From: a virus
Length of the DNA: 42,937 nt
Reading direction: 5' to 3' (one strand)
Virus record (IMG/VR): IMGVR_UViG_3300045110_000090
Location: 1-42,937 of that record
Below the pieces are notes generated by a model. The model saw only the letters and a list, made by a program, of their open reading frames with translations. It made no database searches and was not told the origin of the DNA. The position numbers and the translations under genes are program-made. How positions within the stretch are numbered: position 1 is the first letter of the stretch; every line of letters starts with the position of its first letter. Of this stretch, positions 35,328 to 42,937 are shown in pieces.

Positions 35328-35771
35328 ATGAAAAAGTACATCGCAATAACCGAGACGCGGACGATACCGTACGACGACTATTTAGCAAAAACACAAGACC
35401 TCGGGTCTTATTTCAAAGTGAAGGACGCGGCCAGGGAGGGCGCGATTATGCCGGCAAAATTCAGCGAGAAAGTTTCCAGGGATCCGCGCGATCTGATTTT
35501 CATGCCGGATCGCGCATATATCGAGCGGCTCGCGGTCGGCGATCTGGCGCGTAACTGTTTCGGCTCGCTCGATCGGATCGTCGAGATAACGTTTCGCGGC
35601 GAGGACTCGGACGGCCACATGTACGTCGGATATTACACGCGGTTCGGTCGCGACGGGCGCGTCAGTCACTCGATCAAACAGGACCGGATCGACCGGACGA
35701 TCGCACTAACAAACCGCTACTCGGCCGCGGATATCGACGCGCTCGAGCGGCTCACAAACTGGGAGGAATAA
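35328..35771 (+). CDS. Early hypothetical protein, 147 residues
   Basis: A strong GGGAGG precedes the ATG at 35328. The sequence is a mixed alpha/beta fold: YIAITETRTIPYDDYLAK at the start, EITFRGEDSDGHMYVGYYTRFG (about 87-108) as probable strands, and a helical C terminus (SAADIDALERLTNWEE). I recognise no family. It stands in a run of small early genes with regular spacing and native codon use. Confidence 0.6.
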   Translation: MKKYIAITETRTIPYDDYLAKTQDLGSYFKVKDAAREGAIMPAKFSEKVSRDPRDLIFMPDRAYIERLAVGDLARNCFGSLDRIVEITFRGEDSDGHMYVGYYTRFGRDGRVSHSIKQDRIDRTIALTNRYSAADIDALERLTNWEE

Positions 35772-35773
35772 TC

Positions 35774-36163
35774 ATGGCAGTCAAAATTACAGCAGGCGAG
35801 GCGGTTCTGTACGACTCAGTAACCGGCCAGGCGTTCGGTCCGGTCTGGTCAGACTATGAGGACGCCGAGGAGTTTCTGAAATGGGCGCTCGACTCCGAGC
35901 TCCCGTCGGTCGACGAGCTCACGTATAAAGATCTGAACGCGGCGATCGCTCAGTTTTATGCTGATCGAGCCGCGACTGGCGGGGCTCCGCTCGTCAGGTA
36001 CGCGCGACGAGGGGTCGCCAGTATGACGACCGGCGAGACGGCGACGGCCGCATACGATCGAGCGATCGAGTCGTATGTTCAGGATAACGGCGACTGGGTT
36101 CCGATAACCGTTGCGGAAGTTATCCGATCCGAAGTCGAGCGGATACTGGCGGAGGCGGAATAA
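35774..36163 (+). CDS. Early hypothetical protein, 129 residues
   Basis: GGAGG precedes the ATG at 35774, two bases after the previous stop. The N terminus has a strand-turn-strand look (KITAGEAVLYDSVTGQAFGP), then helices (EDAEEFLKWALDSEL; YKDLNAAIAQFYADRAA) and a C-terminal helix (VAEVIRSEVERILAEAE). No family is recognised. It is the last gene before the TAGAAT box at 36191. Confidence 0.6.
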   Translation: MAVKITAGEAVLYDSVTGQAFGPVWSDYEDAEEFLKWALDSELPSVDELTYKDLNAAIAQFYADRAATGGAPLVRYARRGVASMTTGETATAAYDRAIESYVQDNGDWVPITVAEVIRSEVERILAEAE

Positions 36164-36165
36164 AC

Positions 36166-36196
36166 ATGACACATTCAACGCTCTGTAGAGTAGAAT
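36166..36196 (+). promoter_or_regulatory. Internal early promoter placed for a leaderless start
   Basis: TAGAAT (36191-36196) lies seven bases before the ATG at 36204, and no ribosome site intervenes. ATGACA at 36166-36171 is a possible -35 box with a long 19-base spacer. The arrangement is the same as at 1531 and at the repressor promoter. Confidence 0.4.
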
Positions 36197-36203
36197 ACGC
36201 GCC

Positions 36204-36419
36204 ATGAGTAAACACGTAAAACCGGCGTCGGGCTCGCCGGATCCGGAGCCCGAAACGATCGACCGCCAGGCCGGACTCGGGTCGGCGGACTGTGAAGTAT
36301 GCGGCGAGCGGCTCGGCGCTCGCGACGTCTGGCGCAAGGGTGAATGGTTCGGCCATCTGTGTCCGGACTGTGAGAAAGACGGCCGGCGAGGAGTGGCTCG
36401 TTCCAGGCCTCCAGTTTGA
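36204..36419 (+). CDS. Small zinc-ribbon protein, probably leaderless
   Basis: The product has 71 residues. After a Pro/Ser-rich start it carries CEVC (about 30-33) and CPDC (about 53-56), forming a likely zinc ribbon, and a basic tail (KDGRRGVARSRP). The lack of a ribosome site and the TAGAAT box seven bases upstream suggest a leaderless message. It could bind nucleic acid or a host protein; no family is recognised. Confidence 0.6.
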   Translation: MSKHVKPASGSPDPEPETIDRQAGLGSADCEVCGERLGARDVWRKGEWFGHLCPDCEKDGRRGVARSRPPV

Positions 36420-36591
36420 GCGGGACGCGCGTCTCGGTCTTGCCCCTTTACGGGACGTCTCGAGCGGCTCCGCTCAACCGGCGCCTCGTCGTAGCGATGA
36501 GCGGGGCGCCGCTACTCAAAAAAAACGCCGACACGCGTCGGCGTCAATGCTCGGTTTGTTCTGCAAAATCACTTATCCAGGAAGGTATCCA
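36420..36591. other. Structured non-coding gap, possible small RNA
   Basis: This 172-base gap has no convincing gene. It holds GAGCGG-CT-CCGCTC (about 36463-36476), a longer hairpin with GGCGCC ends (36480-36485 / 36505-36510) and an inner TCGTCG/CGATGA stem, and a perfect 8-bp hairpin next to an A-tract (36518-36544). Such density of stems suggests a structured RNA or a regulatory leader for the annealing-protein gene. Confidence 0.45.
36518..36544 (-). terminator. Intrinsic terminator for leftward transcription
   Basis: ACGCCGAC (36525-36532) and GTCGGCGT (36537-36544) form a perfect 8-bp stem with a 4-base loop. On the minus strand it is followed by eight T residues (A-run 36518-36525). 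No leftward gene lies to its right, so it would stop antisense RNA or end an unrecognised leftward transcript. Confidence 0.7.
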
Positions 36592-37431
36592 ATGACAACT
36601 GATATAGCAACTGCAAAACGCGAGACGGACCTCGCGGTTTACGAGTCGCTCGCTTTACGCGGCGATATCTCGGGGCTCAAGCCGGCGGAGCGGGTCCGGT
36701 ACTTTACCGAGCTCTGTAACTCGCTCGGGCTTAATCCGGCGACTCAGCCGCTCATTCCGTTGACGCTCAACGGAAAACAGACTTTCTATTTTGCGAAGGG
36801 CGCGACTGACCAGCTAGCGCGGATACACAACCTCAGGCGCGAGGTCTTATCGCGCGAGCCGTTCCAGGATGTTTTCGTCGTCACGGTCCGCGCGACGTTG
36901 CCGGAGGGTCGCGCCGAGGACTCGATCGGGGCGGTCGCGATCGGAGGGCTCAAGGGCGAGGCGCTCAGTAACGCGCTTATGAAAGCCGAGACAAAAGCAA
37001 AACGGCGGGCGACGCTCTCGATACTCGGGCTCGGCGGGCTCGACGAGTCCGAGCTCGAGTCGATACCGGCCGAGTCGTTTACGACGGCCGAGCCGGCGAG
37101 GATCGAGCCGGTCAGGACCGAGCCGCGTCAGATCCGCGCGGCCGTCGCGGGGATCAACGGCGAGCAACGCGGCCGGCTCGCGAAGTTATCGCGCGATCTG
37201 ATAGCGGCCGGAGTCGCGAAGGAAAACCTCCAGGGCAAAATGAAAGACATGGCCGGCGTCTCGAGCTCGGCCGATCTGACCAGTATCCAGGCCGAGCAGG
37301 TTATCGGAGTCTTTGCCCAGTGGAACGCGTCACTCGTCGAAGCGGCCGACGAGAAAGCCGAACGCGACGCGATCCAGGCCGAGTCGGAGCCAGTCGTCGA
37401 GACTCCGAAGAAAGTCGAGGTGCCATTTTGA
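36592..37431 (+). CDS. Putative single-strand annealing recombinase
   Basis: The product has 279 residues from ATG 36592 (AGGAAGG upstream). The N-terminal about 150 residues match a phage family with LKPAERVRYFTELCNSLGLNP, LNGKQTFYFAKGATDQLARIH and MKAETKAKRRATLSILGLG. The last is similar to the conserved helix of Rad52/ERF/RecT-superfamily annealing proteins. These coat single strands and pair complementary DNA, supporting phage recombination and replication. The C-terminal part is a variable linker and a small helical domain, ending VEVPF. The partner gene overlaps its stop. I am confident of a recombination role by family resemblance but not of the exact class. Confidence 0.65.
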   Translation: MTTDIATAKRETDLAVYESLALRGDISGLKPAERVRYFTELCNSLGLNPATQPLIPLTLNGKQTFYFAKGATDQLARIHNLRREVLSREPFQDVFVVTVRATLPEGRAEDSIGAVAIGGLKGEALSNALMKAETKAKRRATLSILGLGGLDESELESIPAESFTTAEPARIEPVRTEPRQIRAAVAGINGEQRGRLAKLSRDLIAAGVAKENLQGKMKDMAGVSSSADLTSIQAEQVIGVFAQWNASLVEAADEKAERDAIQAESEPVVETPKKVEVPF

Positions 37432-37979
37432 GCGAGATACTACCGGATAAACTTCGCGGACTGCTCCGCCGGCTCGTCGCGATCGACGACGAGCTCGCGT
37501 CGAAACGCGCCGCGGCCGAGCGGCGCAAGTCCAGGATAACGCTCGATCTGACGGCCGCTAAAGACCTCAAGACCGGAAAACTTGTCCTGACAAACGACAA
37601 GCAACGCGACGCCGCGGTCGCCGAGTTTCTCGAGCAGGACGCGGAGTTTCTCGATCTGTTTCGGGATATGAAAACGTTCGAGCGGGAACGCTCCGACCTC
37701 CAGATCGAGCTCGACGCGATCCGCGTCGATATCAAATACGACCTCCAGCGACGTGAGAAAGCGAATATCGACGCGTCGCTCGAGCTCGCCGACAAGATCT
37801 GGCATTTGCGCCAGGCTCCGGACGCATGGTCGCCGGAGCGGGTTCGAGCGGCCGTCTCGTCGGGGCTCGGCGGTCCGGTCGACGGTCCGCCGGAGTTTTT
37901 CAGAGGTCCAGGACTTCACATAATCGACGACTCGGCCGCGGGGACGCCGGAGGTTGAGGACGACGACGTCCCGTTTTAA
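37428..37979 (+). CDS. Coiled-coil partner of the annealing protein with SSB-like acidic tip
   Basis: The product has 183 residues. The start is TTG at 37428, overlapping the previous stop as TTGA, with GAGG 7 bases upstream. About residues 5-125 are coiled coil (LRGLLRRLVAIDDELASKR; FERERSDLQIELDAIRVD). The end is EVEDDDVPF, closely matching the C-terminal tip DDDIPF of bacterial SSB, which recruits repair and replication proteins. No OB fold is present, so it is not SSB itself. It may dock host SSB-interacting enzymes onto the annealing complex; this is inference from the tip and neighbour. Confidence 0.65.
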   Translation: MSEILPDKLRGLLRRLVAIDDELASKRAAAERRKSRITLDLTAAKDLKTGKLVLTNDKQRDAAVAEFLEQDAEFLDLFRDMKTFERERSDLQIELDAIRVDIKYDLQRREKANIDASLELADKIWHLRQAPDAWSPERVRAAVSSGLGGPVDGPPEFFRGPGLHIIDDSAAGTPEVEDDDVPF

Positions 37980-38489: not shown

Positions 38490-38692
38490 AAGAGAAACGG
38501 CTCGAGGTCCGTCTCGTTCATGACGCGGCGACGCATGTCCCGTTCGGAGTCTGGCTCGGGAAGATACTCGTCTCGCGTCACACTTGTGAAGCGGACGCGA
38601 CGCGGATACGTGACAAACTCAACGCGAAAATTGAGCGGCGAGCGGTTCTCGACGTCGTCGCGAGGATCCGGAACGATGTCCGAAACTCTTAA
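38486..38692 (+). CDS. Small basic early protein
   Basis: The product has 68 residues, beginning with strands (RLEVRLVHDAATHVPFGVWLGK) and ending with a basic helix (IRDKLNAKIERRAVLDVVARIRNDV). It overlaps the upstream gene by four bases and the Dam-type methylase gene by 17. Function is unknown. A methylase accessory role is possible only from adjacency. Confidence 0.6.
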   Translation: MKEKRLEVRLVHDAATHVPFGVWLGKILVSRHTCEADATRIRDKLNAKIERRAVLDVVARIRNDVRNS

Positions 38693-39695
38693 CGCGCCGT
38701 TTCCATGGTTCGGCGGAAAGCGGCGAGTGGCGAGTCTGGTCTGGCGGCGGTTCGGCGACGTTCCGAACTACGTCGAGCCGTTCGCCGGCTCGCTCGCCGT
38801 TTTACTCGGCCGCGAGACGTCGCCGAAAATCGAGACGGTCAACGATCTGGACTCGTACGTCTCGAACTTCTGGCGGGCCGTTCGGGCCGAGCCCGACGCG
38901 GTCGCGGACTTCGCGGACTGGCCGGTCAATCAGACCGACCTTACGGCTCGTCACCAGTGGCTTGTTAATCAGGTCGACTTTCGCGAGCGGATGCTCGTCG
39001 ATCCGGACTATTACGACGTCAAGATCGCGGGATGGTGGATCTGGGGATTATCCCAATGGTTCGGCCAGGGATGGTGTGACGCGCGACCGAGCCGCTCGAT
39101 CGTCATGCGAAAGCGGCCGCATATCTCAGGGCTCCAGGGGATCAACGCGCGTCGCGTCTGGCGGAAAATGCCATATCTCGGATCGGCCGGCATGGGGCTC
39201 ATGTCGGACGGCTCGACCTCGAAACCGATCGCGGATCTGTTCGCGCCGCTATGCGAACGGCTCCGCCAGGTTCGCGTCTGTTGTACCGACTGGACTAACG
39301 TCCTGACGTTTTGTCCGACGACTAATATCGGACTGACGGCCGTCTTTCTCGATCCGCCGTATGAGCTCGGATCGCGGGCGCCGTGTTATTCAACCGACGG
39401 AAATATCTCGGCCGCGGTCCGCGACTGGGCCGTCTCTGCCGGCTCCGATCCGCTCTTTCGGATCGCGCTTTGTGGATACGAGGGCGAACACGTCATGCCG
39501 GCCGACTGGACAAAAGTCGCATGGAAGGCGACCGGCGGACACTCGAGAAACGGCGGACGCGGAGTCGCCAATGCGACGCGCGAGCGAATATGGTTCTCGC
39601 CGGCGTGTATCACTCCGCAACCAGGACTATTCGACGCGCTCGATATAGACTCGCCGGATTATGACGACGCGATCGAGCTCGAGGTTTTCGACTGA
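38676..39695 (+). CDS. Dam-type (D12 class) adenine DNA methyltransferase
   Basis: The product has 339 residues from ATG 38676; the frame is open upstream to 38520 but that part overlaps other genes. Class-defining motifs are PFPWFGGKRRVAS (about 8-20), EPFAGSLAVLLGR (about 34-46) and the catalytic DPPYE (about 226-230). It would transfer a methyl group from S-adenosylmethionine to adenine N6, probably in GATC or a related site, protecting phage DNA or masking it. GATC is very common in the genome. Some central residues (GWWIWGLSQWFGQGWC) are unusually Trp-rich, which occurs in phage members of this class. Confidence 0.88.
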   Translation: MSETLNAPFPWFGGKRRVASLVWRRFGDVPNYVEPFAGSLAVLLGRETSPKIETVNDLDSYVSNFWRAVRAEPDAVADFADWPVNQTDLTARHQWLVNQVDFRERMLVDPDYYDVKIAGWWIWGLSQWFGQGWCDARPSRSIVMRKRPHISGLQGINARRVWRKMPYLGSAGMGLMSDGSTSKPIADLFAPLCERLRQVRVCCTDWTNVLTFCPTTNIGLTAVFLDPPYELGSRAPCYSTDGNISAAVRDWAVSAGSDPLFRIALCGYEGEHVMPADWTKVAWKATGGHSRNGGRGVANATRERIWFSPACITPQPGLFDALDIDSPDYDDAIELEVFD

Positions 39696-41999: not shown

Positions 42000-42293
42000 A
42001 TGCCGGATTTTGGGTTTTGGGTCGGTTTAGCCATCGGGATCGTCCTCGGGTTCGGCGCCAGTCTCGTCCTGTTTCTTCCGATCGTTTGGCGCCAGACTAA
42101 CCTCGAGGACGCGCTCGATAATCGAAAAATGGATCTAAATCTCGCCGTCGCAACTATTGAACGCGTTAGAGTTAACCTCGACGCGCTCGTCGCCGACCGC
42201 GACTCCAGGGTTTTGAATGAGTTTTTCAGGCCGGAAAATGGCCAGATAACGCCATTAATCCAGGCCAAAAAAGGCGAAAAATGGCAGGAGTAA
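42000..42293 (+). CDS. N-terminally anchored coiled-coil membrane protein
   Basis: The product has 97 residues. One strong membrane helix covers about 5-31 (FWVGLAIGIVLGFGASLVLFLPIVW), followed by a coiled-coil segment (LEDALDNRKMDLNLAVATIERVRVN) and a polar tail. This layout (N-in anchor, helical periplasmic or cytoplasmic part) is seen in i-spanins as well as in other phage membrane proteins. The next gene starts inside its end. A lysis role is possible since no other lysis genes are recognised, but unproven. Confidence 0.55.
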   Translation: MPDFGFWVGLAIGIVLGFGASLVLFLPIVWRQTNLEDALDNRKMDLNLAVATIERVRVNLDALVADRDSRVLNEFFRPENGQITPLIQAKKGEKWQE

Positions 42294-42589
42294 AGGGCAG
42301 ATCCGGTCGTAAGTCTAAATTATTGCGGACAAAACTCGCCGAGCTCGTCGACGACGCATGGCCGGTCAAAAAACGCCATGAGATTATCGCGAGTTTGCAT
42401 AACTCCGCGATCAACGACGGTGATACCGAGGCCGCGAAAACTCTGCTCGCGTACGCGTACGGCCGGCCGGCTCAACGTCACGAAATATCCGGACCGGACG
42501 GGGACTCGCTCCAGATCGAAATCCAGGATGTCTCAGACCAGCTACGAGCTAAACTTGCTAACCTCGCTCGAGCCCGCGGAGTTAAATAA
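42281..42589 (+). CDS. Terminase small subunit candidate
   Basis: The product has 102 residues. It starts MAGVKGRSGRKSKLLRTKLAEL, a basic GRSGRK lead seen in small-terminase-like proteins, then helices (HEIIASLHNSAINDGDTEAAKTLL, YAYGRPAQ) and a C-terminal coiled segment (VSDQLRAKLANLARARG). It overlaps both the upstream membrane gene (13 bases) and terL (62 bases), the classic place for TerS. TerS recognises the packaging site and regulates TerL. No clear HTH is visible, so the call rests on position and the N-terminal pattern. Confidence 0.65.
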   Translation: MAGVKGRSGRKSKLLRTKLAELVDDAWPVKKRHEIIASLHNSAINDGDTEAAKTLLAYAYGRPAQRHEISGPDGDSLQIEIQDVSDQLRAKLANLARARGVK

Positions 42590-42937
42590 TTTTCTCGCGG
42601 ATCTGACGCCGGCCGAGTCTCAGGCACTGCTTTACGACTGGTCGTTCTGGGCCAGGCCGAACCAGCTCGCGCCGGCCGGCGACGACTGGCTCACATGGCT
42701 ACTATGTGCCGGCCGCGGTTTCGGCAAGACCAGATCGGGCGCCGAGTGGATCCGCTCGGAGGCAACCTCGGGAGGGCGTCGCCGGCTCGCTCTGGTCGCG
42801 CCGACCGCGGCCGACGCTCGCGACGTTATGGTCGAAGGCGAGTCCGGCGTTCTCGCGATATGTCCGCCGGCCGAACGGCCGCTATACGAGCCGTCGAAGC
42901 GGCGACTGACGTGGCCGAACGGCGCCATGGCTACCGT
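42528..42937 (+). CDS. terL: Terminase large subunit, N-terminal part (continues at position 1)
   Basis: The frame opens at ATG 42528 and runs to the end of the window; its last 127 bases duplicate the window start. The Walker A site AGRGFGKT lies at about residues 61-68, preceded by a Trp-rich segment (YDWSFWARPNQLAPAG) typical of this terminase type. Position 42810 plus window bases 1-2 make one codon, so the join keeps the frame. The 62-base overlap with the preceding small gene suggests translational coupling; TTG at 42555 is a possible alternative start. Confidence 0.92.
   Translation, partial: MSQTSYELNLLTSLEPAELNNFLADLTPAESQALLYDWSFWARPNQLAPAGDDWLTWLLCAGRGFGKTRSGAEWIRSEATSGGRRRLALVAPTAADARDVMVEGESGVLAICPPAERPLYEPSKRRLTWPNGAMAT
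42811..42937. repeat. Right copy of 127-bp terminal overlap
   Basis: This is identical to positions 1-127. The true genome probably ends at 42810 and rejoins position 1. The duplicate should be removed before counting genes or bases. Confidence 0.95.

Follow-up and report, generated by a model that had tools for sequence, protein, structure and literature searches.

SSB tails form a hub that gathers bacterial repair, restart, and replication enzymes. A pair of adjacent phage genes raises the question of whether such a tail can be carried by a protein without the OB fold of SSB: the first gene encodes a putative annealing protein, and the second encodes a predicted helical protein that ends in an SSB-like tip. 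The reading we favor, with a confidence that stops just short of even, is that of a recombination module that pairs its annealing protein with an OB-less tail carrier where phages usually have an SSB; this tail carrier would recruit host enzymes.

The window, meaning the whole stretch of DNA analyzed, corresponds to a 42,937-base virus record in IMG/VR, which shows near-complete synteny with a second record, G001. Many of the matches to its capsid and portal proteins come from phages of Actinobacteria, with identity below 60%. The record appears to be cut within the large terminase gene (42590-42937 and 1-1016), with a terminase-small-subunit-like ORF, recognized by eye, at its end (42281-42589) and ORF 18-1016 at its start; in G001, the latter is part of a single 434-aa ORF (35540-36844). 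Genes for a DNA methyltransferase (1543-2118, PHROG 757) and a D12-class adenine methyltransferase (38520-39695) are also present. The two genes in question, here called the annealer and the partner, comprise the following features.

36592-37431, + strand: ORF of the putative annealing protein (279 aa; C terminus KKVEVPF)
36637-37068, + strand: Rad52-like annealing core (aa 16-159), a conserved block of the 23-sequence alignment, e.g., MKAETKAKRR
37147-37386, + strand: predicted helical C-terminal domain of the annealer (aa 186-265; model helices 190-205, 210-221, and 231-265)
37414-37428, + strand: C-terminal VEVPF of the annealer, by direct reading
37428-37431, + strand: TTGA overlap of the annealing-gene TGA stop and the partner TTG start, read from the sequence
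37428-37979, + strand: ORF of the partner (183 aa; helical hairpin, linker, and SSB-like tip; C terminus VEDDDVPF)
37446-37814, + strand: predicted helical hairpin of the partner (aa 7-129) with the turn KTGKLVLTNDKQR, from AF2
37866-37958, + strand: linker of the partner (aa 147-177), with pLDDT <50 at 147-167
37959-37976, + strand: SSB-like tip DDDVPF of the partner, by direct reading

Judged from the sequence, translational coupling of the annealer and partner genes through the TTGA overlap is probable. The partner homologue in G001 starts at the equivalent residue (M-S-x-L-L-P), its ATG overlapping the TGA of the preceding gene. In that phage, an HNH-type gene (L324:1088-1501) lies between the annealer and the partner, and the overlap of its stop with the partner start reads ATGA.

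The designation of ORF 36592-37431 as an annealing protein, originally proposed from the sequence alone, is supported by its predicted fold and gene context. An AF2 model from 23 sequences (mean pLDDT 86.6) has a Rad52-type fold. Its best Foldseek match in the PDB is human RAD52 (E 3e-4), the top matches all being RAD52, and phage Rad52, ERF, and RecT proteins are matched in BFVD, with low whole-chain TM-scores to the matches (about 0.25). Among curated families, none in Pfam, PHROGs, or NCBIfam is matched above its cutoff; the best E value for Pfam Rad52_Rad22 is 0.19 for the annealer and 0.0013 among its relatives. Of the 23 aligned family members, two match Pfam Rad52 weakly and one matches a PHROG annotated as a RecT-like annealing protein. 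A scan of viral contigs gave about 440 relatives, and identity of the annealing core to viral relatives is about 40-65%. Relatives have SSB genes and Gam-like proteins as neighbors, a setting of recombination genes; NinB-like and nuclease-like neighbors were seen by eye only. As both the predicted fold and the gene context support this identity, we describe ORF 36592-37431 as a putative annealing protein with a Rad52 fold. The same fold and context are found in the Rad52/ERF/RecT phage annealing proteins, whereas the subfamily of the window falls below Pfam cutoffs and some of its members have SSB-like tips. The annealer residues VEVPF are as first described, but their likeness to an SSB tip is weak: because a single acidic residue occurs in the last six, "VPF end" is a firmer label than "SSB tip."

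The partner C terminus also reads as described, DDDVPF, and the accompanying proposal of a coiled coil instead of an OB fold is supported by the structural prediction. The AlphaFold model, made from a single sequence (mean pLDDT 72), contains helices at 7-49 and 57-129, a short third helix, disorder at 147-167, and zero strands; the turn KTGKLVLTNDKQR is identical in G001. Consistent with this, profiles for SSB (PF00436) and DUF669 (PF05037) have zero matches in six frames of the window and G001, though an SSB too divergent for these profiles may still be encoded. Pfam, PHROG, and NCBIfam likewise return zero matches for the partner, and Foldseek finds generic helical hairpins alone, with a best E value of 0.1 and no PDB family.

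In several relatives, the gene that follows the annealer also encodes a helical protein, of the Mu Gam-like or Gp157-like type. Neither sequence nor profile comparison relates these proteins to the partner, and those inspected have no SSB tip; Gam/Gp157 homology of the partner was accordingly rejected (hhalign probability, 0.5%; no PHROG 253 match). The Gam family is named for DNA-end protection, and the partner could be pictured as a decoy whose free tip fills the SSB pockets of RecO, RecQ, RecJ, and ExoI, so that phage ends are shielded or host recombination is blocked. The Gam-like protein (PHROG 253 match) that follows the annealer in several relatives would suit this picture, as would the small size of the partner and its lack of any other recognized domain. 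However, a decoy has no need for gene overlap or for a tip shared with the annealer, and with the partner unrelated by profile to its Gam-like counterparts, we consider a decoy role improbable. Phage MW202444.1 (L083:4655-4990) has a 111-aa coiled coil directly after its annealer, with an NExxR...L...Y/F pattern like that of the partner turn region. It is a possible, marginal candidate for a remote homologue of the partner, as its score was reached in 3 of 2,000 heptad shuffles; unlike the partner, it has no tip and ends in ASEQVA.

An annealer accompanied by a tip carrier is known in kind, since annealer-SSB modules are standard, with erf-ssb, rad52/22-ssb, and sak3-ssb in Firmicutes phages (PMC8093625). 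In these modules and in the Sak4-SSB pair of HK620, an annealing gene stands beside one whose product ends in a tip, as in the window (PMC5928155, PMC8093625). What sets the window apart from the annealer-SSB modules is that its tip carrier is OB-less, with a predicted hairpin and an unnamed family, and that its annealer also ends in VPF. Deinococcus DdrB, with a purported SSB-like tail, is a precedent for a tipped annealer; it differs, however, in having another fold, in being bacterial, and in carrying the motif on the annealer itself, with no such tail-carrying partner described there. DdrB is absent among the Foldseek matches shown for the annealer. The earlier note knew of no described partner of this kind, and our search, confined to open-licence PMC papers, agrees in finding no described OB-less helical partner that bears a tip.

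To what extent the tip is conserved can be judged from one further phage. Direct searches of IMG/VR, GTDB genomes, phages, and plasmids gave no partner homologues. G001, reached via the major capsid protein (90% identical), is the sole other phage found with the partner; an alignment-based rescan returned G001 again and nothing further, 31 bacterial genomes yielded nothing convincing, and another neighbor gene was unproductive as bait. Identity between G001 and the window is 56% for the partner and 66-69% for the annealer, the search that first identified the annealer giving 68% and an alignment over the full length 66%. Both tips are kept in G001, as DDSDIPF in the partner and DKSVPF in the annealer, so the conservation that the earlier note had named as a test of its proposal is found in the one homologous phage. 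The G001 partner linker is 15 aa shorter, the linkers of the two phages barely align, and the annealer segment before the tip is poorly conserved between the phages. The partner tip is encoded by GAC GAC GAC GTC CCG TTT TAA in the window and by GAT GAT TCA GAT ATT CCA TTT TGA in G001, the stop codon being TAA in one and TGA in the other. Because the tip is kept while the adjoining sequence has diverged, the partner tail is probably functional, and its retention alongside diverged linkers, codons, and stop is what purifying selection predicts, in the one genome pair that the two partner-family members found can provide.

The strictly kept part of the tip is the aliphatic residue plus the Pro-Phe terminus (SVPF and DIPF in G001), and acidity varies. 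This bears on another explanation, in which the acidic tips regulate the phage proteins themselves, shielding the annealer DNA-binding surface or tuning oligomerization with SSB pockets uninvolved. As discussed in PMC5928155, an SSB can have its DNA-binding site contacted by its own acidic C-terminal tail, and the net charge of the last 20 partner residues is -7, both of which such regulation would accommodate. As charge is not the feature that has been kept, we see little likelihood in it.

Could the two tips be chance endings without function? The six frames of the window contain 511 ORFs with 50 aa or more. A terminal PF together with two or more acidic residues among the final 10 occurs in only two of these, the annealer and the partner, which are adjacent to each other. 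When the two genes were shuffled with their own codons, such ends arose at rates of 0.0004 and 0.0011. The motif is short, and the tail is disordered and of low confidence in the partner model, as a chance origin would allow. Against it stand these shuffling rates, the conservation of both tips in a phage as diverged as G001, and an enrichment of tips on related annealers; chance endings are thus already disfavored, and we rate them as very improbable.

The enrichment was measured across the annealer family with a strict tip test, which 11 of 211 distinct annealer tails pass (about 5%). The test is also passed by 27 of 2,026 other same-strand ORFs with 120 aa or more, roughly half of which their sequence marks as canonical SSBs; on the opposite strand, 1 ORF of 8,676 passes. 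Annealer tips are therefore enriched with a Fisher P value of 5e-4 against all, or 6e-6 with canonical SSBs set aside, in a comparison that ignores the kinship of the annealers. On a FastTree phylogeny of the annealer core with the 14 PF-ending members labelled, there are about seven label changes, which makes more than one gain of SSB-like tips probable. Six PF-ending members fall in a single clade of eight; the tips in this clade are DDDCPF (L034), ADEIPF (L043), AGEIPF (L061), DAEMPF (L063), PGEIPF (L064), and DKDLPF (L087).

Of the 186 relatives in which a gene follows the annealer, 12 have a tip on the product of that following gene, mostly an SSB or SSB-like protein; in the window, this slot is filled by the OB-less partner. 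A mutual exclusion between annealer tips and neighbor tips was considered (1 of 13 against 35 of 197), but these are too few to claim it. L129 (5833-6501) and L144 (5868-6545) each encode, some 1 kb downstream of a related annealing gene, a protein of 222-225 aa; the two proteins have diverged and end in the SSB-like tips ETEIPF and EVEIPF, respectively. The L129 protein has zero Pfam or PHROG matches, and homologues of these proteins in the sister loci L149, L151, L153, L159, L160, and L161 have no tip. The L129 and L144 proteins are possibly a second non-SSB tail carrier.

How might an OB-less tail act? The SSB tip binds more than 17 partners, and its last two residues, Pro-Phe, fit a pocket of RecO (PMC7913777). 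We infer that the partner tip may bind host SSB partners. In such a scheme, the annealer would displace host SSB from phage single-stranded DNA, and the partner hairpin would oligomerize, bind the annealer on that DNA, or both. The resulting array could show several tips to the conserved SSB-tail pockets of host proteins, candidate readers being RecO, PriA, ExoI, RecQ/RecJ, primase, chi, and the like. Together with the VPF end of the annealer, the partner would restore the SSB hub function, and host restart, loading, or nuclease enzymes would be brought to the annealed intermediate. Several points weigh against a module that recruits host enzymes: the annealer tip is weakly acidic, only two partner-family members were found, and the SSB of the host is present anyway. 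The DdrB annealing protein offers a further argument by analogy, in that its SSB-like C-terminal motif is dispensable for radioresistance (PMC3834827).

The main rival to host-enzyme recruitment is docking within the phage pair, in which the partner tip is a ligand of the helical C-terminal domain of the annealer and the partner serves as a loader or scaffold, with host enzymes uninvolved. There is precedent in Sak4, for which the phage SSB tail is required to bind SSB-coated DNA and the last six SSB residues (NDYPPF) are required for stimulation of this cognate annealer (PMC5928155), and in Red-beta, in whose CTD K253 and probably K214 mediate SSB binding (PMC8303780). The annealer model has a helical C-terminal domain, a candidate docking domain by analogy to the Red-beta CTD, and the two genes overlap. 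However, sequence comparison matches this domain neither to the Red-beta CTD nor to another SSB-binding fold, the VPF end of the annealer would itself compete for the site, and some annealers carry tips in loci without a visible tip-bearing neighbor. We regard docking as less likely than recruitment of host enzymes but as the foremost alternative to it.

Taken more broadly, a module that recruits host enzymes would mean that the jobs of SSB are split, the annealer coating single-stranded DNA and the OB-less partner supplying the tail that directs host enzymes, and that SSB tips have been grafted repeatedly onto non-SSB phage recombination proteins. We put this forward tentatively, at somewhat less than even confidence. 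If true, the partner would show the SSB tail and its DNA-binding fold separated in nature and would be a clean reagent for learning which partners annealing proteins need, and it may explain why some hosts but not others support annealer activity. The finding also suggests a simple genome-wide search for non-SSB phage proteins with an acidic Pro-Phe tip.
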